NCBI GenBank assembly: GCA_944383915.1
Contig: CALWRJ010000009.1
Coordinates: 1-36,905, forward strand
From: an uncultured Clostridia bacterium
GTDB lineage: Bacteria; Bacillota; Clostridia; Christensenellales; UBA1242
Direction: 5' to 3'
Length of the DNA: 36,905 bases
Made by a program: the position numbers and the translations under genes. Of the stretch, positions 1-36,905 are shown piece by piece; position 1 is the first letter of the stretch, and each line of letters opens with the position of its first letter. The notes under the pieces are model-generated. The model saw nothing but the letters and a program-made list of their open reading frames with translations. It did no database searches and was not told the origin of the DNA.

Positions 1-132
1 AAAAAAGTAAATTATCAAGCAAAAAAATTTAACAAGTTAGATAACATACAGTCTAATAATACGCAAATAAATACTAAAAATCTCAACGCAACCCCTTGCG
101 CTTTTTTGCATTTCCAAAGGGGGTGCATCTAA
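1..132 (+). CDS. 3' end of BspA leader ORF (partial)
   Basis: The frame is open from the window edge to a TAA at 130-132 that directly abuts the ATG of the next gene. Its residues align with the end of the leader ORF at 34593-34919: both contain VNYQA, an INTK segment and the closing ATPCAFLHFQRGC. The 5' part, where a poly-G tract would be expected by analogy, lies outside the window. The end of the ORF contains the hairpin CGCAA-CCCC-TTGCG (87-100) followed by a T-run, and the Shine-Dalgarno of the downstream gene. Because stop and start are adjacent, ribosomes finishing this ORF could re-initiate on the BspA gene. Whether the peptide itself has a function is unknown. Confidence 0.6.
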   Translation, partial: KKVNYQAKKFNKLDNIQSNNTQINTKNLNATPCAFLHFQRGCI

Positions 133-1485
133 ATGCCTATTAAAGAAATTTTTAAAAAATATAAACTCTATACAATGCTCTGTATAATCACTCTTGTTTT
201 AATAACAAGCGGTATAATTTTAGGAATGTTGTTATTGAATTCCACGCCATCGACTAAAGCATTTACTTACCAGGATTACGAGATTGAGATAACATCAGAC
301 GGCATTACAATAACGGGATATACAGGAAGTTTTACAGCTTTACCGATACCAGCTATATTAATGGGGATTTATGTTACTAGTATTGGAACTGGAGCGTTTG
401 AAGGTGATGCAAATTTAACAGATGTAATCATTCCTGATAGCGTCACCAGCATAGGAAGTTGGGCGTTTCGTGATTGTAGCGTTTTAACCTCGGTAACAAT
501 AGGAAATAGTGTCACTAGTATAGGAAGTTCTGCGTTTCAAAATTGTACAGATTTAACCTTGGTATATTTTTACAACGATATTACCACAACTTCATCCATA
601 GGTTCATCTGCTTTTACAGGTGGTAACTCTAATGTAACCTATTACTTTAAAGACCAAACTAGTTTAAACAATGCCCTTACTTATCATAGTGATAAATTTT
701 CAAATACAAATTTTGAAACATTTGGTGCTACTATTACCGCTCAACCAAACAATGAGACTTACGGCTCAGTATCGGGTGGTGGTTGGTTTGAAAATGGTAC
801 AAGTTGTACCTTACAAGCCACCGCTAATAATGGTTACCGCTTTTTAGGGTGGGATACTAATGGAGACGGCCAGGCGGATAACACTTCAACCCCTTGGACT
901 TTTAATGTATCGCAAGATTTAAATTGTACTGCAATATTTGAAGTCGTACCAACTGTTACAATTCAAACAAACGACAGTACTCTTGGACAAATTTTTGCAA
1001 ACAATGTGCTAGGCAATTCTACAACAATTCAAGTACAAAGTGGTGGTGCGGTATCAAATATTATGGCGCTAGCCGTAGGTGGAAACGCTTTTGCATACTG
1101 GCAAATTGATAGGGGTGACGGAAATATAACCACCAGCACTGAAAACCCTTTAAGTTTAAATAACATCACCGCAGATACCACAGTTACAGCGGTGTTTGCA
1201 AATAGTTTGTTAGAAAACTTTGCGGTTGCTTCAATAGGTGGTGGAGAAGCAAGAATTAACGGTTACACCGAAGGCGATAGTTATATTCATTTAAGTGCGT
1301 TTTGCTACACAGGATACACCTTTGCTGGCTGGTATTATGCCGATGCAGAAACACCATTTAGCACGGATAAATCAATAGACCTAGACATTTCCACCGCCGA
1401 AAGCAAACTTATAATTGCTCGCTTTGTACCAACAAATAGTACAAACAACGGACAAACGGACACAGGCAACAGCGGAGTACTTTAA
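133..1485 (+). CDS. BspA-like LRR_5 surface protein with InlB-like B-repeats (copy 1)
   Basis: A 450-residue exported protein. The N-terminus is a short basic stretch followed by one hydrophobic segment (about residues 14-36) ending STKA, which looks like a Sec signal peptide or signal anchor. About three LRR_5 repeats follow (residues ~78-145, pattern VTSIGxxAFxxCxxLTSV). Then comes a YYFKDQTSLNNA linker shared by all four paralogues, and about three B-repeat modules of the divergent InlB type (GYxFxGW and TVTAVF signatures). There is no LPxTG motif; the end is NNGQTDTGNSGVL. BspA-like proteins of gut and oral bacteria are usually surface adhesins, so adhesion is a family inference. The SD AAAGGGGG lies 9 bases before the ATG, inside the leader hairpin region. 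This is the shortest of the four copies. Confidence 0.85.
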   Translation: MPIKEIFKKYKLYTMLCIITLVLITSGIILGMLLLNSTPSTKAFTYQDYEIEITSDGITITGYTGSFTALPIPAILMGIYVTSIGTGAFEGDANLTDVIIPDSVTSIGSWAFRDCSVLTSVTIGNSVTSIGSSAFQNCTDLTLVYFYNDITTTSSIGSSAFTGGNSNVTYYFKDQTSLNNALTYHSDKFSNTNFETFGATITAQPNNETYGSVSGGGWFENGTSCTLQATANNGYRFLGWDTNGDGQADNTSTPWTFNVSQDLNCTAIFEVVPTVTIQTNDSTLGQIFANNVLGNSTTIQVQSGGAVSNIMALAVGGNAFAYWQIDRGDGNITTSTENPLSLNNITADTTVTAVFANSLLENFAVASIGGGEARINGYTEGDSYIHLSAFCYTGYTFAGWYYADAETPFSTDKSIDLDISTAESKLIIARFVPTNSTNNGQTDTGNSGVL

Positions 1486-13817: not shown

Positions 13818-15593
13818 ATGGCAATAAAAGAATTATTTTCAAAATATAAACTTTATACAATGCTAGTTATTGTGTCTATAGTCTTAATTGCTACTGGTGT
13901 AATTCTTGGCGTTTTGTTGCCTAATACAACCCCTTCAAAAGCGGATACAGACGGCGATTTTGAATATACTGTCTCTGGTAGTAATGCAACTATTACTGAT
14001 TATACAGGAAGCGCAACAGAACTCATAATACCAAGTACATTAGGAGGTTATACAGTAACCAGCATAGGAAATTCTGCATTTTATAACTGTACTAGTCTAA
14101 CTTCAGTAGAAATACCTAATACTGTTACTAGCATAGGTGATGCTGCATTTCAAACCTGTTATAATTTAGCATCTGTAACAATACCTGATACTGTTACTTA
14201 CATAGGTGGTTCAGCATTTTGGCGCTGCGGTTTAACATCAATAGATATACCAAATGGTGTCACGAGCATAGGTAGTCAGACTTTTTATGGTTGTCAAAGT
14301 TTAACATCGGTAACTATACCAGATAGTGTTACAAGCATAGGTGATAGTGCGTTTTATTATTGTACAAATTTAACCTCAATAGTTTTACCAAGTGGTATTA
14401 CAAGTATAGGGAACAGCACATTTCAAAACTGTACTAATTTATTAAATATAACAATACCTAACGGTGTTACTAGAATTGGCATTAATGCGTTTTATCTTTG
14501 CTCTAGCCAGACTTCGATAACGATACCCGAAAGCGTTACTAGTTTTGCGATGGGAGCATTTGCTGGGTGTACTAGTTTAACTTCTGTTTATTTTTATAAT
14601 AATATTGCTAATGTAACATTTGAAAATAATGTTTTTGTAGATGGAAATTCTAATGTAACATATTATTTTAAAGACCAAACAAGTTTAAATTCTGCAGAAA
14701 ACTGGAGTTCTAATTTCACAAATAGTAGTAGCGGAAGTCCAAACTTTCAACTTATGACATTGAATATAAATATCACTGTTGAAAGTAATAATGAAAATTT
14801 AGGAACGGTAAGCAATAATAGTGGAATGTATATGGCAGGCACTTCAATTATTATAAGCGCAACACCTAACGAATACTATACATTTTTGGGCTGGAGTTTA
14901 GACGGTGGAAATTCAATTAAAGACGGTACTGAAAATCAAACAAGTTATACCGTAAATATAACTACAAATGCAACCTATACTGCAGTTTTTAGAAGTAATA
15001 CTACGATAATAATCACCACTAACGACAGCACTCTAGGGCAAGTTTCGGTAAATAATGAATTTGGTAATTCAATAACAGTATATGGTTCGTCAGTACAAAA
15101 TATAATTGCAGTAGCAAACAGAGATAGCACTTTTCTATGCTGGACAATTGAAAGTGGTGATAGTACTAGTACAAGTTATGAAAATCCTTTAAATTTAAAT
15201 AACATCACTGCAGACACAACGGTTACCGCGGTATTTTCAAATGGGCTTGTCGAAGGCATAGCAGTATCGGTACAATATCAAGGCAGTGAAACAAACTTAG
15301 CCGTAGCAGGTAGTGCTAAAATACTCGGCTACACTACCACAAACGGACTAGAAACAGTAAATGTAGTAGCGCAAGCGTACACAGACTATACCTTCCTAGG
15401 TTGGCAAGTAGACGGAGAATACATAACCTACCAAGACGAAAGCGGGCAAACAATCACCCTTCAAGGTTATGACTACATCAGCGCTAGCATACCGCTTTCA
15501 GTTATAGACGGTAAACAAATATTTGCAGTGTTCACATCATCAATTAATACGAACAACGGACAAACTGATAGTGGCAACAGCGGAGTCTTGTAA
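13818..15593 (+). CDS. BspA-like LRR_5 surface protein with InlB-like B-repeats (copy 2)
   Basis: A 591-residue exported protein. N-terminal KYKLYTMLVIVSIVLIATG is the family signal segment, with a possible cleavage after SKA. Residues ~70-260 hold about eight LRR_5 repeats (VTSIGxxAFxxCxxLTSVTIPxS). The shared YYFKDQTSLN linker follows, then three B-repeat-like modules (YYTFLGWSLDGG, TTVTAVF, YTFLGWQVDG) and the tail NNGQTDSGNSGVL. It differs from the other copies in lacking the poly-G leader and in having its own SD (CAGGAG, 10 bases upstream) and probably an XRE-controlled promoter. Adhesion at the cell surface is a family-level inference. Confidence 0.85.
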   Translation: MAIKELFSKYKLYTMLVIVSIVLIATGVILGVLLPNTTPSKADTDGDFEYTVSGSNATITDYTGSATELIIPSTLGGYTVTSIGNSAFYNCTSLTSVEIPNTVTSIGDAAFQTCYNLASVTIPDTVTYIGGSAFWRCGLTSIDIPNGVTSIGSQTFYGCQSLTSVTIPDSVTSIGDSAFYYCTNLTSIVLPSGITSIGNSTFQNCTNLLNITIPNGVTRIGINAFYLCSSQTSITIPESVTSFAMGAFAGCTSLTSVYFYNNIANVTFENNVFVDGNSNVTYYFKDQTSLNSAENWSSNFTNSSSGSPNFQLMTLNINITVESNNENLGTVSNNSGMYMAGTSIIISATPNEYYTFLGWSLDGGNSIKDGTENQTSYTVNITTNATYTAVFRSNTTIIITTNDSTLGQVSVNNEFGNSITVYGSSVQNIIAVANRDSTFLCWTIESGDSTSTSYENPLNLNNITADTTVTAVFSNGLVEGIAVSVQYQGSETNLAVAGSAKILGYTTTNGLETVNVVAQAYTDYTFLGWQVDGEYITYQDESGQTITLQGYDYISASIPLSVIDGKQIFAVFTSSINTNNGQTDSGNSGVL

Positions 15594-18262: not shown

Positions 18263-18290
18263 TTGTATTTTTTACTTTTTCGAGTATACT
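18263..18290 (+). promoter_or_regulatory. Conserved promoter of BspA leader (copy 3)
   Basis: TTGTAT (18263-18268), a 16-base spacer and TATACT (18285-18290) in the context GAGTATACTAT. The same hexamers, spacing and flanks occur at 34529-34556 before copy 4, while the sequences further upstream differ. Confidence 0.75.
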
Positions 18291-18364
18291 ATTTCTGTAA
18301 AAATAAACAAAAAAGGGGAACAAAATATGTTAAAAACGCAAATTTCCCCTTCCCAAAACTGCAT

Positions 18365-18373
18365 GGGGGGGGG
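18365..18373 (+). repeat. Poly-G tract (9 G)
   Basis: Nine consecutive Gs in a very AT-rich region, inside the leader ORF. The homologous tract at 34631 has ten. Such tracts are typical slipped-strand mispairing sites. Confidence 0.85.
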
Positions 18374-18658
18374 CGCTTAAATAGCCCAAAATTACTTGTT
18401 TTAAAGCATTTTAAAGGCTGTTTATCCGCACTAAATACAGGTGTAAAGGAGATATACACTCCCACACAAATTACCCCAATAAATACAAGGTATTTACTAC
18501 TCCCAAATACTAACATAAATGCGGACTTTTTTTTACCCCAAAATACAACTATAAATAAATATCAAACTTTTAATTTACCACAACAAAACAATAATTTAAA
18601 AGTTTCTTTTTCGCTTTTAAATTCACCCCAACATAACAAAAATTTAATTAAAATCTTT

Positions 18659-18707
18659 AGCGCAACCCCTTGCGCTTTTTTAGCATTTCCAAAGGAGGTT
18701 CATCTAA
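18659..18707 (+). promoter_or_regulatory. Attenuator-like hairpin and SD block before BspA copy 3
   Basis: AGCGCAA (18659-18665), CCCC loop, TTGCGCT (18670-18676) and a T-run form a minimal intrinsic-terminator shape inside the leader frame. It is followed by CATTTCC and the SD AAAGGAGG, which can partly pair with it. The block is conserved at 87-132 and 34874-34918. Reading the leader through this region should disrupt both hairpins. Confidence 0.55.
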
Positions 18708-21700
18708 ATGCCTATTAAAGAAATTTTTTCCAAATACAAACTCTATACAATGCTTTGTATAATCACCCTAGTTTTAATCGCCGGTGGTGTAACTTTAGGT
18801 GTTACTTTATCAAAAGATACCGAACAACCAGTCAAAGCAGATGCTGTATATGTATATGATGATTATGGTAATGAATACTATTTTGAAACTTCAGGCGATA
18901 CTGCTGAATTGGTGTATGGAAATATATATGAGCCTTATACGGAAGTTGTTATCCCCAGTACAATTGAGGATGATTGGGGCAATCAATATACCGTAACCAG
19001 TATTGCATCTTATGCATTATCATGGTATGAAATCAGTTCTCTTTCGATACCTGATAGTGTTACAGATATAGGTGAGGGTGCTTTTTCTTATTGTGAGAAT
19101 TTGGAAACAGTAACAATAGGGGAAGGAGTTAATAATATATGGAATAATGCATTTGAAGGTTGTACTAGTTTAACTTCGGTAACTATTCCTTATAATGTTT
19201 TTTACATAGGTGATTATGCTTTTTTTAATTGTTCTAGCTTAGAATTTGCCAGTATAGGTAATCGAGTATTTTATATAGGTGAGAGTGCTTTTGAAGGTTG
19301 TGAAAATTTATCGTTTATAATTTTTAATTATACGAGTTCATCTGTTTATGACGACAACTACAATAGCCACGAAATTGAAATAGGGGCTAATTCTTTTATG
19401 TGTGCTGATAGTATGGCTTGTTATTTTGAAAACGAAGGTATTATGAATTATGTGTTAAATAATTATGGTAGCGCATTTTCTGATACTAGTGATTTTCAGT
19501 TGAATAGATTTACTACATATATAACAGCCGATGGTGTAGAATGCTCATCAAGTAATTATGATTTTTCTATATCTTATAAATTATTAAGTTCACAAACTTG
19601 TACTATAGAGGTTGTAATGCGTGGTAACTCGAGTGCTACTTCAATAATTATTCCTGAAATGGTATCGGATAATTCTTTTATAGTTGAAGAAATTTCTATG
19701 CGATATAGGGCAGAGATAGGCGTGTTTTATCATTCATATGTCACAAATATAATTTTACCAGATACCTTAAAAAGAATAGTAGGTTCAGCGTTTTATGCTA
19801 GTGATAATTTGGAAACAATAACTATAGGAAGTGGTTTAACTAGTATACAAGGGGCTCATGCTTTTAGAGCTTGCCCATTAACCACAATAAATGTAAGTGC
19901 AGATAATCCTAATTTTAAAGATATTGATGGAGTTATGTATTCAAAAGATGGTAAAACAATAGTTGCTTATCCTAGAGGGAGAGATGCGACTACCTATGCA
20001 ATTGAACCTAATTCGACAGCTATAGGAGATTATGCCTTTCGTTATTGTAATCGTTTGACCTCAATAGAAATCCCCGATAGTGTCACCAGCATAGGAGATT
20101 GTGCATTTGATAGTTGCACCAGTTTAACTTCTATAAAAATACCAGATAAAGTTACTAGTATAGGAGATGGTACCTTTAATTATTGTAGCGATTTAACTTC
20201 GATAACAATACCTAATAGTGTCATCAGCATAGGAGATTCTGCATTTGATAGTTGTAGCGGTTTAACTTCGATAACAATACCTGATAGTGTCACCAGCATA
20301 GGAGGTACGGCGTTTTCTAGTTGTAGCGGTTTAACTTCGATAACAATACCAGATAGCGTAGTTCAAATAGGAGACTATGTCTTTCCTAATTGTAGTAACT
20401 TAAGAACAGTTACTATCGGCAAGAATGTGGCTACTATGGGTTATCAGCTATTTTCAGGTTGTACTAATCTAACAACTATATATTTTTATAATGATATTTC
20501 CTCGGTTTCATCTACTATTGGTAGTAGTGCTTTTAGGGGGACTAGTTCAAGTGCAAGATATTACTTTAAAGATCAAACAAGTTTAAATAATGCGAGTAAT
20601 TACCATAGTTATAAATTTGCTAATTCAAATTTTCAACTAATGACTTTAAATACAAGTATCACTGTTCAAAGTAGTAATGAAAGTTATGGTACAGTCAGTG
20701 ATAGTACAGGAAGTTACGCTGTAGGCAGTTCGGTAGTAATAGGTGCTTATCCTCGTGATAATTATGAATTTTTAGGTTGGAGTTTAAATGGAGGAAATAC
20801 AATTATTAGTGGTACAGAAAATCAAACAAGTTATGTAGTAAATGTAACAAGCGATGCTACATATACCGCAGTGTTTAGATTAAAAAATTACACAATCACC
20901 ACTAGCACAGACGGAAATGGTACTATTTCAGCAACTGCAAGCTCGGTGCAAAGTGGAGGCAGTGTAACGGTAACCGCAACACCGTCTAGTTCAAGTTATG
21001 AATTTGACTATTTTATAGTAAACAACGGAAGCCCAATTTATACTAACCCATATACCGTTACAAACATTACGCAAAACACCACAATCACCGCATACTTTAA
21101 ATTAAAGACATACACCATAACTACCAACACAGACGGAAATGGAAGTATAACCGCTAGCGCTACTGTTTCTCACGGCGGAAGTTTTCAAGTAACCGCAACT
21201 CCAAATGCAAGTTATTTGTTTGATTACTTCATTCTAAACAACGACACCAGTAACCCAATAACAACCAATCCATACACGATTGAAAATATAACTCAAAACA
21301 CAACAATCGTGGCATACTTTAAACGAGCGTATGCGCAAACAACAGCAACAGCAGGTGGGGAAGTGCGGGTAACAGGAAATAACCTAGGCGCAGAACACAC
21401 GAGTGAAAGTGTTTCATACACTGCAATACCATATACTAACTATTACTTAATCGGCTGGTTTATAGACGGAGTACTATATACACAAAACGGAGCAACTGTC
21501 ATAGATAAAACAATAACATTATCGCAAGCCCAAGCCCAAGGCGCGTGGGTAGTACCAGTATTTAGTACCAACCCAAATGAAGCACCCGCTCTGAACACAA
21601 CCTTAGAAAATACAACCGCAGTTAACTCCACAATAGGCGGTGAAGCAAGAATGGTAGGGCTTGACAATACGGACACCCAAGCCACCCTAATAGCCAAAGT

Positions 21701-21875
21701 AGACGACAACTACCGTTTCATTGGTTGGTATGACGGAGAAACCTTACTCGGCACTGATTTAAGTATCCGCCTAAACCTTTCCGCCATCCAAAATAAAATA
21801 ATAATCGCCCGCTTTGAACCAATAACCACTAATTCAAACGACCAAACAGACAGTGGTAATATAGATATATTATAG
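18708..21875 (+). CDS. BspA-like LRR_5 surface protein with InlB-like B-repeats (copy 3, largest complete)
   Basis: A 1055-residue exported protein. The signal segment KYKLYTMLCIITLVLIAGG ends near VKA. There are two LRR_5 blocks: about five divergent repeats (residues ~95-210) and about nine more regular ones (~345-595). Between them is a region with no clear repeats (~215-345). The second block includes a longer insert, FKDIDGVMYSKDGKTIVAYP, also seen in copy 4. After the KDQTSLNNA linker come four or five B-repeat modules (ITTSTDGNGTISA, TNPYTVTNITQNTT). The tail is SNDQTDSGNIDIL. The SD AAAGGAGG is 9 bases upstream. The preceding leader is out of frame (G9), so expression may be reduced in this isolate if coupling matters. 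Confidence 0.85.
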   Translation: MPIKEIFSKYKLYTMLCIITLVLIAGGVTLGVTLSKDTEQPVKADAVYVYDDYGNEYYFETSGDTAELVYGNIYEPYTEVVIPSTIEDDWGNQYTVTSIASYALSWYEISSLSIPDSVTDIGEGAFSYCENLETVTIGEGVNNIWNNAFEGCTSLTSVTIPYNVFYIGDYAFFNCSSLEFASIGNRVFYIGESAFEGCENLSFIIFNYTSSSVYDDNYNSHEIEIGANSFMCADSMACYFENEGIMNYVLNNYGSAFSDTSDFQLNRFTTYITADGVECSSSNYDFSISYKLLSSQTCTIEVVMRGNSSATSIIIPEMVSDNSFIVEEISMRYRAEIGVFYHSYVTNIILPDTLKRIVGSAFYASDNLETITIGSGLTSIQGAHAFRACPLTTINVSADNPNFKDIDGVMYSKDGKTIVAYPRGRDATTYAIEPNSTAIGDYAFRYCNRLTSIEIPDSVTSIGDCAFDSCTSLTSIKIPDKVTSIGDGTFNYCSDLTSITIPNSVISIGDSAFDSCSGLTSITIPDSVTSIGGTAFSSCSGLTSITIPDSVVQIGDYVFPNCSNLRTVTIGKNVATMGYQLFSGCTNLTTIYFYNDISSVSSTIGSSAFRGTSSSARYYFKDQTSLNNASNYHSYKFANSNFQLMTLNTSITVQSSNESYGTVSDSTGSYAVGSSVVIGAYPRDNYEFLGWSLNGGNTIISGTENQTSYVVNVTSDATYTAVFRLKNYTITTSTDGNGTISATASSVQSGGSVTVTATPSSSSYEFDYFIVNNGSPIYTNPYTVTNITQNTTITAYFKLKTYTITTNTDGNGSITASATVSHGGSFQVTATPNASYLFDYFILNNDTSNPITTNPYTIENITQNTTIVAYFKRAYAQTTATAGGEVRVTGNNLGAEHTSESVSYTAIPYTNYYLIGWFIDGVLYTQNGATVIDKTITLSQAQAQGAWVVPVFSTNPNEAPALNTTLENTTAVNSTIGGEARMVGLDNTDTQATLIAKVDDNYRFIGWYDGETLLGTDLSIRLNLSAIQNKIIIARFEPITTNSNDQTDSGNIDIL

Positions 21876-34528: not shown

Positions 34529-34556
34529 TTGTATTTTTAGTGTTTTTGAGTATACT
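34529..34556 (+). promoter_or_regulatory. Conserved promoter of BspA leader (copy 4)
   Basis: TTGTAT (34529-34534), a 16-base spacer and TATACT (34551-34556) within GAGTATACTAT, the same as before copy 3. Confidence 0.75.
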
Positions 34557-34592: not shown

Positions 34593-34919
34593 ATGTTAAA
34601 AACGCAAATTTCCCCTTCCCAAAATTCGCTGGGGGGGGGGCGCTTAAATAGCCCAAAAATACTTGTTTTACCGCACTTTAAAGGCTATTTATCCGCACAA
34701 AATATAGGTGTAAAGGAAGGGTATTTATCTCAAACCTTTACTCCTAAAACAACCACTCCCACAAACATTAATACAACATCAAATAAAAGAAAAAATGTAA
34801 ATTATCAAGCAAATTATACAAACAAGTTTAAAACACTTTACAAAAACACAGAAATAAATACAAAATATCTTGACGCAACCCCTTGCGCCTTTTTGCATTT
34901 CCAAAGGGGGTGCAACTAG
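34593..34919 (+). CDS. BspA leader ORF, in frame through a G10 tract (putative ON state)
   Basis: A 108-codon ORF with SD AAAAGGGGAA 6 bases before the ATG. It begins MLKTQISPSQNSLGGGRLNS, where the glycines are encoded by ten Gs (34631-34640), and continues to ATPCAFLHFQRGCN. Its stop TAG (34917-34919) shares a base with the GTG start of BspA copy 4. Both ends match the leader at 18327 while the middle differs in sequence and length, which suggests that reading through matters more than the middle peptide. It has no signal peptide and is asparagine/threonine-rich. AAGGGGAA/TTCCCCTT (34579-34617) can enclose its own SD. Confidence 0.75.
   Translation: MLKTQISPSQNSLGGGRLNSPKILVLPHFKGYLSAQNIGVKEGYLSQTFTPKTTTPTNINTTSNKRKNVNYQANYTNKFKTLYKNTEINTKYLDATPCAFLHFQRGCN
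34631..34640 (+). repeat. Poly-G tract (10 G)
   Basis: Ten consecutive Gs inside the leader ORF, one more than at 18365. The flanks (CGCTTAAATAGCCCAAAA) are the same at both loci. Confidence 0.85.
34874..34918 (+). promoter_or_regulatory. Attenuator-like hairpin and SD block before BspA copy 4
   Basis: CGCAA-CCCC-TTGCG (34874-34887) followed by a T-run. Then TGCATTTCC can pair with GGGGGTGCA around an AAA loop, burying the SD of the BspA gene. The block is nearly identical at the first locus (87-127). Confidence 0.55.
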
Positions 34920-36905
34920 TGGCAGTAAAAGAATTATTTTCAAAATATAAATTATACACAATGCTTTGTATAATCACCCTAGTCCTAGCCACAGGTGGTA
35001 TAATTCTAGGTGTTTCATTATCAAAAGACACCGAACAACCCGCCGGAGCGGCAATAGGTAATGAGTTTACTGTAGGTAATTTAATTTATTCCATAACAGT
35101 AGAAGGTTTAAACGGAGAAGTCGAGGTAACTGGCACAACAAGTACAAGTATTAGTGGGAGTTTAACAATCCCTAGTTCCGTCAGTTATTCTGGTGTTACT
35201 TATAGTGTCACAAGCATAGGAGAAGGTGCGTTTTGGTCTTGTCGCAATTTAACCTCAGTAACAATACCTAATAGTGTCACCAGCATAGGAAGGCTAGCAT
35301 TTTCTGGTTGTAATAGATTAACTTTAATTACAGTTGCTTCAAATAACCAAACATATCAAAGTATAGATGGAGTAATATATTCTAAAGATGGCAGTACAAT
35401 AGTTATGTATCCTATAGGTAGAACAGGAGATTGTTTTATAAGAGAAGGAACAACCAGCATAGGAGATTCTGCGTTTGAATATTGTCGTATAACTTCAGTA
35501 ACAATCCCCGATAGTGTCACCAGCATAGGAGAGAGAGCATTTTCTTGTTGTAGTCGTTTAACCTCGGTAACAATAGGTAGCGGTATTACTAGCATAGGAG
35601 AGTATGTGTTTGATAATTGTCATAATTTATTTTCAGTAACAATCCCCGATAGTGTCACCAGCATAGGAAGTTCTGCGTTTTTTGCTTGTAATAGCTTGAC
35701 TTCTGTAACAATTCCCGACAGTGTCACTAGCATAGGAAGTTCTGCGTTTGGGAGTTGTGATAGTTTAACCTCGGTAGACATACCAGACAGTGTCACCAGC
35801 ATAGGAAGTCGGGCGTTTGCTGATTGTACTAGTTTAACCTCGATAATAATTCCTAATAGTGTTACCAGTATAGGAGATGAGGCGTTTAATAGTTGTAGCA
35901 GTTTAACCTCTGTAACAATAGGAGATAGTGTCACCAGCATAGGAGAGGAGGCATTTTCTGAGTGTGATAGTTTAACTTCATTTACAGTTGATCCAAATAA
36001 CCAAACATATCAAAGCATAGACGGAGTTATATATTCGAAAGATGGTAGTACAATTGTATTGTATCCAACGGGCAAATCAGGAGGTTACTCTATAATAGAA
36101 GGAACAACCAGCATAGGAAGTTCTGCGTTTTATGGTTGTAGTCGTTTAACCTCGGTAACAATACCTAATAGTGTCATCAGCATAAGAAATTTTGCGTTTT
36201 ATGGTTGTAGCGGTTTAACCTCGGTAACAATCCCGGATAGTGTCACCAGCATAGGAAGTTATGTGTTTTGGAATTGCTCTAGTTTAACCTCGGTAATATT
36301 ACCTAGTAGTAGACAGACTAGTAGCGGAAGTTACGTGTTTTTAGATTGTACAAGTTTAACATCGGTAATAATCCCTAATAGTTTTACCAGCATAGGAGAT
36401 TCTATGTTTTCAGGTTGTACCAGTTTAACCTCAGTAACAATAGGAGATAGTGTCATCAGTATAGGAAGTTCTGCGTTTTATAATTGTACTAGTTTAACTT
36501 CGGTATATTTTTATAATAATATATCAACTTCATCATCTAGTATAGGTTCATCTGCTTTTACTAATGGTAATTCTAATGTAATATATTATTTTAAAGACCA
36601 AACAAGTTTAAATAATACTAGTAATTTTCATAGTTCAAAATTCACAAATAGTAATAATGGTAGTCCAAACTTTCAATTAATGAGTTTTTTTATAAATATG
36701 AATACAGACGGGAATGGACAAATTTCTGCAAATGCTAGTACTGTTCAATATGGCGGTAATATAACGGTTACCGCAACGGCAAATACAGGGTATATGTTTG
36801 ATTACTTCATCTTAAACAACGATACAAATAACCCAATAACAACCAACCCATACACAATTGAAAATATAACTCAAAACACAACGATAGTAGCATACTTTAA
36901 ACGAG
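34919..36905 (+). CDS. BspA-like LRR_5 surface protein (copy 4, 3' end beyond window)
   Basis: Starts at GTG 34919, overlapping the leader stop, and is open to the window end (662 codons so far). N-terminal AVKELFSKYKLYTMLCIITL matches the family signal segment. About 16 LRR_5 repeats follow (VTSIGSSAFxxCxSLTSVTIPDS), with two longer units containing NQTYQSIDGVIYSKDGSTIV. Then come the KDQTSLNN linker and at least one B-repeat (TVQYGGNITVTATANTGYMF) whose DNA is nearly the same as in copy 3. It has the most regular repeats of the four. The in-frame leader suggests it is the expressed paralogue of the two with a visible tract. Confidence 0.85.
   Translation, partial: MAVKELFSKYKLYTMLCIITLVLATGGIILGVSLSKDTEQPAGAAIGNEFTVGNLIYSITVEGLNGEVEVTGTTSTSISGSLTIPSSVSYSGVTYSVTSIGEGAFWSCRNLTSVTIPNSVTSIGRLAFSGCNRLTLITVASNNQTYQSIDGVIYSKDGSTIVMYPIGRTGDCFIREGTTSIGDSAFEYCRITSVTIPDSVTSIGERAFSCCSRLTSVTIGSGITSIGEYVFDNCHNLFSVTIPDSVTSIGSSAFFACNSLTSVTIPDSVTSIGSSAFGSCDSLTSVDIPDSVTSIGSRAFADCTSLTSIIIPNSVTSIGDEAFNSCSSLTSVTIGDSVTSIGEEAFSECDSLTSFTVDPNNQTYQSIDGVIYSKDGSTIVLYPTGKSGGYSIIEGTTSIGSSAFYGCSRLTSVTIPNSVISIRNFAFYGCSGLTSVTIPDSVTSIGSYVFWNCSSLTSVILPSSRQTSSGSYVFLDCTSLTSVIIPNSFTSIGDSMFSGCTSLTSVTIGDSVISIGSSAFYNCTSLTSVYFYNNISTSSSSIGSSAFTNGNSNVIYYFKDQTSLNNTSNFHSSKFTNSNNGSPNFQLMSFFINMNTDGNGQISANASTVQYGGNITVTATANTGYMFDYFILNNDTNNPITTNPYTIENITQNTTIVAYFKR

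Follow-up and report, generated by a model that had tools for sequence, protein, structure and literature searches.

Poly-G tracts in leader reading frames as a putative phase switch of surface genes in an uncultured clostridial genome

Pilus locus pil1 of Streptococcus gallolyticus undergoes phase variation by means of GCAGA repeats in the open reading frame (ORF) of a leader peptide, whose translation opens an intrinsic terminator upstream of pil1 (Danne et al. 2014, PMC3894217). The same layout was reported for pil3, and the pil1 evidence includes mutants of the terminator, of the leader start and with added stops; trp-type leaders, where a translating ribosome prevents an intrinsic terminator, are also discussed there (PMC3894217). 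The present analysis deals with a leader ORF at 18327..18380 that carries a run of nine Gs ahead of a BspA-type surface gene. It lies in a window of 36,905 nt (the whole stretch of DNA analysed), contig CALWRJ010000009.1 of an uncultured Clostridia bacterium. A preliminary description of this window knew of no published system of this form; pil1 and pil3 are of this kind.

As in pil1, the repeat is placed in a leader ORF between a promoter, recognized by its sequence only, and a surface gene. Likewise, in 11 of the 16 related leaders of this genome, a short leader stops 5' of a terminator-like hairpin through which a long leader passes. We propose, with a probability of about 0.75, that the tract acts as a slipped-strand switch and that translation of its leader, not the peptide made, turns the surface gene on, via terminator opening and/or unmasking of the gene's Shine-Dalgarno sequence (SD). 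A poly-G switch in a leader ORF separate from the surface gene, and coupling or attenuation as its likely mode of action, had both been put forward in the preliminary description and are supported by the comparative sequence evidence given below.

Leader frames and their poly-G tract

All window features described here lie on the forward strand. The leader starts with ATG 18327, enters the G9 tract (18365..18373), a putative slippage site, and stops after 17 codons at TAA 18378-18380. As assembled, it is in the OFF state and reads MLKTQISPSQNCMGGGA before the stop. Directly after the tract, CGCTTAAATAG (18374..18384) supplies one stop for each of the two wrong frames. The remaining frame, which reads TTA at 18377, displayed 113 open codons (18377..18718) and its TAA (18716-18718) overlaps the ATG of the BspA gene (18708) by 11 nt. 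Direct reading thus confirmed the early stop behind the tract and the neighbouring frame open to the BspA start, as well as the intact leader announced at another locus, the copy at 34593 being open throughout with a G10 tract. The leader is preceded by its own SD, AAGGGGAA (18313..18320), the complement of which, TTCCCCTT, occurs just inside the leader, and by a promoter-like TTGTAT - 16 nt - TATACT (18263..18290), which was not among the sites reported by a consensus scan around the first leader. The promoter element GTATACTA was present in all 16 leader copies, 34-38 nt 5' of the leader ATG (on a sequence basis only). Within the leader frame lie a terminator-like hairpin, AGCGCAA-CCCC-TTGCGCT followed by T5 (18659..18681), which is an attenuator candidate, and the SD of the BspA gene, AAAGGAGG (18691..18698). 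The gene itself (18708..21875) encodes a BspA-type leucine-rich repeat (LRR) surface protein of 1055 aa with a hydrophobic N-terminal segment (PF13306 1.3e-90, PF18998 1.2e-35).

The genome of origin (G000; 1.18 Mb in 23 contigs, 96.8% complete, one metagenome assembly) contained 16 leader copies, every one with a tract of G9 to G14: two copies each have 9 and 10 Gs, seven have 11, three have 12 and one each has 13 and 14. Some 0.2 G9/C9 runs were expected by arithmetic on the base composition of the window. The 50 overlapping G9 positions found genome-wide are the exact sum of (length - 8) over the 16 leaders, and there is therefore no further G9/C9 run in this genome; in the window, the only G/C runs of at least 7 are G9 (18365-18373) and G10 (34631-34640). 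A long homopolymer within an ORF, far above chance, and differing tract lengths that yield both frame states among the copies are features of ORFs that vary in phase by slipped-strand mispairing of simple sequence repeats. As assembled, 3 of the 16 paralogs were ON and 13 OFF, all state labels, including G9/OFF for the first leader, being a metagenome consensus that is error-prone at long homopolymers. L001 and L010 are among the ON copies, L002 and L016 among the OFF ones. These lengths might be sequencing or assembly slips in a metagenome-assembled genome (MAG), all copies truly sharing one frame. Short-read assemblies do miscall homopolymers of 9-14, and a surface gene was visible behind 10 of the 16 leaders only, since contigs end or join nearby at the other 6. 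Yet the tract and both frame states recurred in four congeners with assemblies of their own (G001, G002, G006 and G008), and a slip-prone tract would remain in the leader even if its lengths were wrong, so that we regard an artefact as quite improbable.

The post-tract sequence was CGCTTAAATAG in 15 of the 16 copies and stops one of the wrong frames by TAA, the other by TAG; off-frame stops occurred after 1 and 2 codons in 16/16. Past the tract, the open frame measured 25, 79, 91, 113 or 117 codons and thus formed five length classes. Relative to the gene start, it ended at 0, -1, -7 or -11 nt in nine of the ten copies with a visible gene (the exception being L004), the stop overlapping or abutting the gene start and the SD lying within the leader. 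Tract, frames, stops, overlap and copy number are direct observations. Since both wrong frames are stopped at once and one frame is open, tract length would set how far ribosomes reach. The placement of the stop was assessed by shuffling the sequence between tract and gene 2000 times and scoring stops within -15..+3 of the gene start. For each of the six long leaders with a gene at the frame end, 0-2 of the 2000 shuffles placed a stop there; for the three short leaders the figure was 303-305, which is not significant individually. As paralogs are not independent, the argument was built on length classes and congeners and not on copy counts.

The residues of the leader peptide were little constrained. 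In four leader pairs of the same length, the ratio of nonsynonymous to synonymous changes (pN/pS) was 0.44-0.88 versus 0.44-1.53 in the other two frames, which is not clearly lower; the other 6 of the 10 pairs were excluded as unequal in length (e.g. L001-L003, misaligned by a 3-nt indel). The one leader peptide searched against Pfam gave no match. A conserved functional leader peptide was consequently rejected on the grounds of this search and of the weak residue constraint. Since the frame is kept while its residues are little constrained, the retained feature is probably the open frame ending at the gene, the peptide being irrelevant and translation itself the signal.

The weak peptide constraint would also suit a leader without regulatory function, be it a small protein gene that has decayed or is cryptic or an N-terminus that was severed, with a frozen relic as tract and a surface gene that uses its own SD regardless. 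Own SD-like sequences (AAAGGAGG or AAAGGGGG) were indeed found in five of six long-class genes, and L017 is a relic leader that lies ahead of a 70-aa stub and has no tract; the missing Pfam match and the pN/pS values point in the same direction. A relic would hardly account for frames that stay open up to 117 codons with indels in frame, for stops at the gene start at five lengths, for both frame states among 16 copies, or for the five paralogs of the same genome that were read upstream and proved leaderless with AGGAG SDs. We consider it unlikely and retain a translated leader under tract control as the better explanation.

Two gene families were found behind leaders: BspA-like genes with a KYKLYTML-type N-terminus, and a second family in which the one member searched displayed InlB-type repeats and a marginal DUF6273 match. 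The KYKLYTML-type N-terminus had 17 matches in the genome, 8 of them behind leaders (including the L004 gene and the gene at 133), and the N-terminus of the second family had 4, of which 3 stood behind leaders. The leaderless paralogs mentioned above are L176, L179, L182, L184 (the window gene at 13818) and L185; among the 21 own-genome matches, the upstream DNA of L186, L187, L189 and L193 was left out. One stub among these matches stands behind the relic leader L017 (L017:1500-1760, G000:C13:90885), which displayed promoter and hairpin without a G tract ahead of its surface-gene remnant.

Two other leaders occur in the window. The second one, with its -10 element TATACT at 34551..34556, is intact (ON) with 108 codons (34593..34919) and a G10 tract (34631..34640). 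Its TAG (34917-34919) overlaps the GTG (34919-34921) of a second BspA-type gene as TAGTG, with one G shared, and its frame includes a hairpin, CGCAA-CCCC-TTGCG, followed by CC and T5 (34874..34894); the gene (34919..36904, PF13306 2.4e-112) runs off the contig end. The third is a leader tail (1..132) truncated by the contig start, with a hairpin at 87-100 and a TAA immediately 5' of ATG 133, where another BspA-type gene begins (133..1485, PF13306 1.4e-19). By eye, this tail is identical to the final parts of L003 and L005 (contigs C14 and C1) and thus belongs to one of those, so that it was dropped as a seventeenth leader. All three window genes behind leaders matched BspA-type LRR and InlB-type repeat models.

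Loss of mismatch repair was rejected as cause of the tracts, as MutS1 was above cut-off in 13 of 14 genomes, including this one. A distant search of a phage collection with the first leader gave no match, and neither did a single pattern scan of viral contigs. In a termite gut Bacillota (L088, WRCD01000011.1, 1152-1169, minus strand), a G9 is followed by CGCTAAATAGCATAAAAATACTT, like the post-tract sequence of the leaders; a short frame, LNSIKILLPI..., ends near an ATG, and an upstream leader start was not seen. At the far end of L009 (G000:C12:1-140), a contig end of 55% GC is joined to sequence of 31% GC, probably an assembly chimera.

Candidate hairpins in long and short leaders

Under the proposed mechanism, slippage of the tract would set the leader frame and hence the distance that ribosomes travel. 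In the OFF state they would be released within a few codons of the tract, and in the ON state they would reach the stop that overlaps or abuts the start codon of the surface gene. Moving ribosomes would cover the in-leader terminator-like hairpin of long leaders, so that RNA polymerase passes, and in short leaders they would open an SD-masking hairpin and pass on to the gene at the overlapping start codon. Many surface proteins of one genome would thereby be switched ON and OFF stochastically and independently. Slippage in cells, termination, SD unmasking and the effect on expression are steps that we infer from the arrangements described here.

The hairpin of the long leaders resembles an intrinsic terminator and consists of CGCAA-CCCC-TTGCG, or the longer AGCGCAA-CCCC-TTGCGCT, followed by T5-T6. 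It was found in 11 of 16 leaders, always in frame and at six different distances from the tract, beginning 195-309 nt after the frame mark; off-frame stops lie within 2 codons of the tract. It was absent from three short leaders (L010, L014 and L016), and two further leaders were truncated by contig ends. In the five copies that combine an overlapping or abutting gene with an intact core, the T-run begins 29-31 nt 5' of the gene start. The exact motif CGCAACCCCTTGCG occurred 11 times in the genome: ten copies belong to leaders and the eleventh to the leader tail (window 87-100). It was absent from 11 other genomes searched. For the ten intact-core hairpins, 0-2 of 100 shuffles of the leader concerned held an equally stable one. 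The relic leader L017 displayed one paired change in its hairpin.

In the short leaders, TTTTACCGC pairs with the GGCGGTGAAA or GGCGGTGGAA of the gene, and the resulting SD-masking hairpin folded better than shuffles in all three (z scores of -3.1, -3.2 and -3.5; five control genes without leaders gave 1.2 to -2.0). A comparable organization was observed in congener G008, where four of four distinct leaders with an ATGYTAG overlap form a long hairpin that takes in both the SD and the start codon; none of 200 shuffles was as stable, and one compensating change was recorded, which is not significant.

The composition of the long leaders had initially suggested Rho-dependent polarity, with the early stop of OFF copies exposing C-rich, G-poor leader RNA to Rho. 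In the nine long leaders measured, the post-tract C/G ratio was 1.71-2.35 versus 0.85-0.90 in the window and two genes; the three short leaders were not C-rich. This idea was left mostly unsupported by a Rho profile search: no match reached the 509-bit cut-off in G000 or five congeners, whereas 8 of 14 control genomes passed. A Rho-like ORF far under the cut-off does exist (scoring 45 bits in G000 and at best 75 bits, in G004), that of the genome itself (L165) having a sub-threshold ATP-synt_ab Pfam match only, and two of four order-level relatives were likewise below 509 bits. L165 (G000:C20:10167-11219) and its congener counterparts are about 410 aa long and carry GENTSGQT, which we take to stand where the P-loop lysine is expected. 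To judge from these sequences, the genus may be without a working Rho, or may possess a divergent working one, and Rho polarity appears very improbable as the OFF mechanism.

Equally improbable in our view is a control in which tract length acts by RNA or DNA structure, the C-rich stretch pairing with either the leader SD or the G tract and so tuning leader initiation. Predictions for the 15 of the 16 G000 leaders that have an SD G-run did give a pairing of the leader SD of 0.79-1.00 before the tract and of 0.04-0.56 with the tract, and at most 10 of 100 shuffles paired the SD equally in 13 of these 15 (L012 and L013 gave 26 and 15). All observed tracts (9-14) are, however, long enough to pair, so that copies should differ little; for G001, G006 and G008 the two hairpins are mostly present together and shuffle tests were mostly weak. 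Tract pairing would, moreover, leave unexplained why a frame stays open and stops where the gene begins.

Tract-bearing frames in congeners

In six congeners, 41 poly-G sites were listed by hand and 39 examined, two at contig starts being left out. Four of the 39 (L116, L127, L137 and L148, the latter a TrxB-like GGG stretch) were not leaders; L120 was cut at the tract and L147 lacked its upstream part. RpoB of seven genus members was 85-94% identical to that of G000. Genomes G003 and G005 displayed no G9 run.

Three organizations were encountered. The first has the tract within the surface protein gene itself and prevailed in G002, for which the following counts hold among the matches listed. 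At least 30 tracts were read in 28 regions, 24 of them of the LNS type; 20 of these continue as a single open frame of at least 76 codons into the protein, three run into a contig end within 25 codons, and in L203 a stop follows after 32. Fusion into the protein was also observed in G004 (one), G009 (three) and two cases of G007. The second organization is the overlapping leader, seen in all three leaders of G001, where L141 displayed a different hairpin and ATGA, and in part of G008. Detached leaders make up the third; they occurred alongside overlapping ones in G008, and in G006 and part of G007, where the gap spans some 50-480 nt. The hairpin motif searched for was present in four of the eight G006 leaders. 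Both frame states were recorded, readable leaders being ON in 1/3 (G001), 2/7 (G006) and 3/12 (G008), and LNS-type tracts with a readable state in 7/21 (G002, among the matches listed). An rpoB tree of 13 genomes had fused and leader designs intermixed and some forks were weak, and no direction of change was therefore inferred.

Several other observations were made in these genomes. At G002 loci such as L195, L202, L204 and L206, in-frame repeat insertions (RNDTERE..., FRPSPLGRVE...) occurred in the N-terminal part of fused surface genes. L128 (G004:C14) displayed a G13 in the N-terminal hydrophobic segment of another surface-like protein, a possible in-protein switch. In several leaders of G002, G006 and G008, TTATCCAC(A/C) was noticed by eye 5' of the G tract in either orientation; it is partly complementary to the leader SD and presumably resembles a DnaA box.

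A number of results weigh against leader-translation control as proposed here. The MAG consensus may miscall G9-G14 tracts, and tract variation between cells is not directly visible in it. The L004 gene sits 392 nt past its leader stop, L009 and L012 have ends like that of L004 and no visible gene, and the detached leaders of G006, part of G007 and part of G008 lack the overlap. The terminator-like hairpins are weak to moderate, with predicted energies of -4.5 to -9.0 kcal/mol (pil1: -18.7, PMC3894217), and L011 has one broken pair. Consensus terminator scans gave 2 sites versus 2.0 expected in the first leader region and 2 versus 0.6 in the second. Pair covariation did not exceed shuffles in the terminator-like or the SD-masking hairpin, and the hairpin argument rests on position and frame for this reason. 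As for SD masking, the pairing test was weak in the short class (11-26 of 100 shuffles equalled it), the long class was at chance level both by folding energy (z -0.5 to -2.2) and by pairing (50-94 of 100 shuffles paired the SD at least equally well), and gene starts of congener G001 were not clearly masked (z -1.2 to -1.9).

Comparison with known systems

The leaders would functionally resemble pil1 by analogy and bring new features, kinship to pil1 not being claimed. Shared with pil1 and pil3 are a repeat-bearing leader ORF between promoter and surface gene and a frame shift that decides leader length. In pil1 and pil3, the short leader ends 5' of an intrinsic terminator, the long one reaches and opens it, and a mix of ON and OFF cells results. 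GCAGA repeats, two pilus loci and terminators of -18.7 and -28.2 kcal/mol are particular to these two systems, whose long leaders stop shortly ahead of the hairpin, inside it or past it, whereas here they end at or over the start codon of the gene. The GCAGA pentamer was absent here, the repeat being G; it is a trait of the first example that the mechanism does not need. In turn, poly-G, 16 dispersed loci, a hairpin-less short class with a masked SD and congeners with an in-protein tract set the present leaders apart. Neither 'overlap' nor 'translational coupling' is used in the main text of PMC3894217, and the literature searched (subscription papers lying outside its coverage) contained no poly-G leader, no version with a stop/start overlap and no case with more loci than the two pilus ones.

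Other known principles are also combined here. Translational coupling via overlapping stop and start codons is a known arrangement. The TAGTG, ATGA, ATGGTAA and ATGCTAG overlaps, with an SD inside the upstream ORF, are like those of coupled pairs; unlike in such pairs, the upstream ORF is apparently product-less and carries a slip-prone tract. In E. coli pyrBI-type attenuation, a ribosome translating the leader prevents an intrinsic terminator, as would be the case here. Leaders of the pyrBI and trp types sense a metabolite, whereas the input here would be random tract length. From what was accessible on Neisseria hmbR, Campylobacter and others, a G homopolymer that frames an ORF in or out, surface targets and several loci per genome are shared features. 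In hmbR-type cases the tract lies in the expressed gene or its promoter, and here in a separate leader ORF; congener G002 represents the classic in-ORF form with a matching tract sequence.

These comparisons suggest that phase-variable leader control, for which one streptococcus provides the experimental evidence, may govern an entire set of surface proteins in an uncultured clostridial lineage of the gut. Copies that are naturally ON or OFF are available for direct comparison, and the series of fused, coupled and detached tracts offers material on how phase switches evolve. With the tract outside the protein, one cassette can serve BspA LRR and InlB-repeat genes while leaving their sequences unchanged. 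For annotation, short frameshifted ORFs ahead of surface genes call for caution, as they may be switches and not junk. The wider proposal, for which we see the chances as evenly balanced, is that a product-less leader ORF with a slip-prone tract gates at least 10 dispersed surface genes via two ribosome effects, the opening of a terminator and the unmasking of an SD, and that one tract module has been rewired within the genus as in-protein fusion, overlapping leader or detached leader, so that the switch would evolve as a movable promoter-leader cassette.

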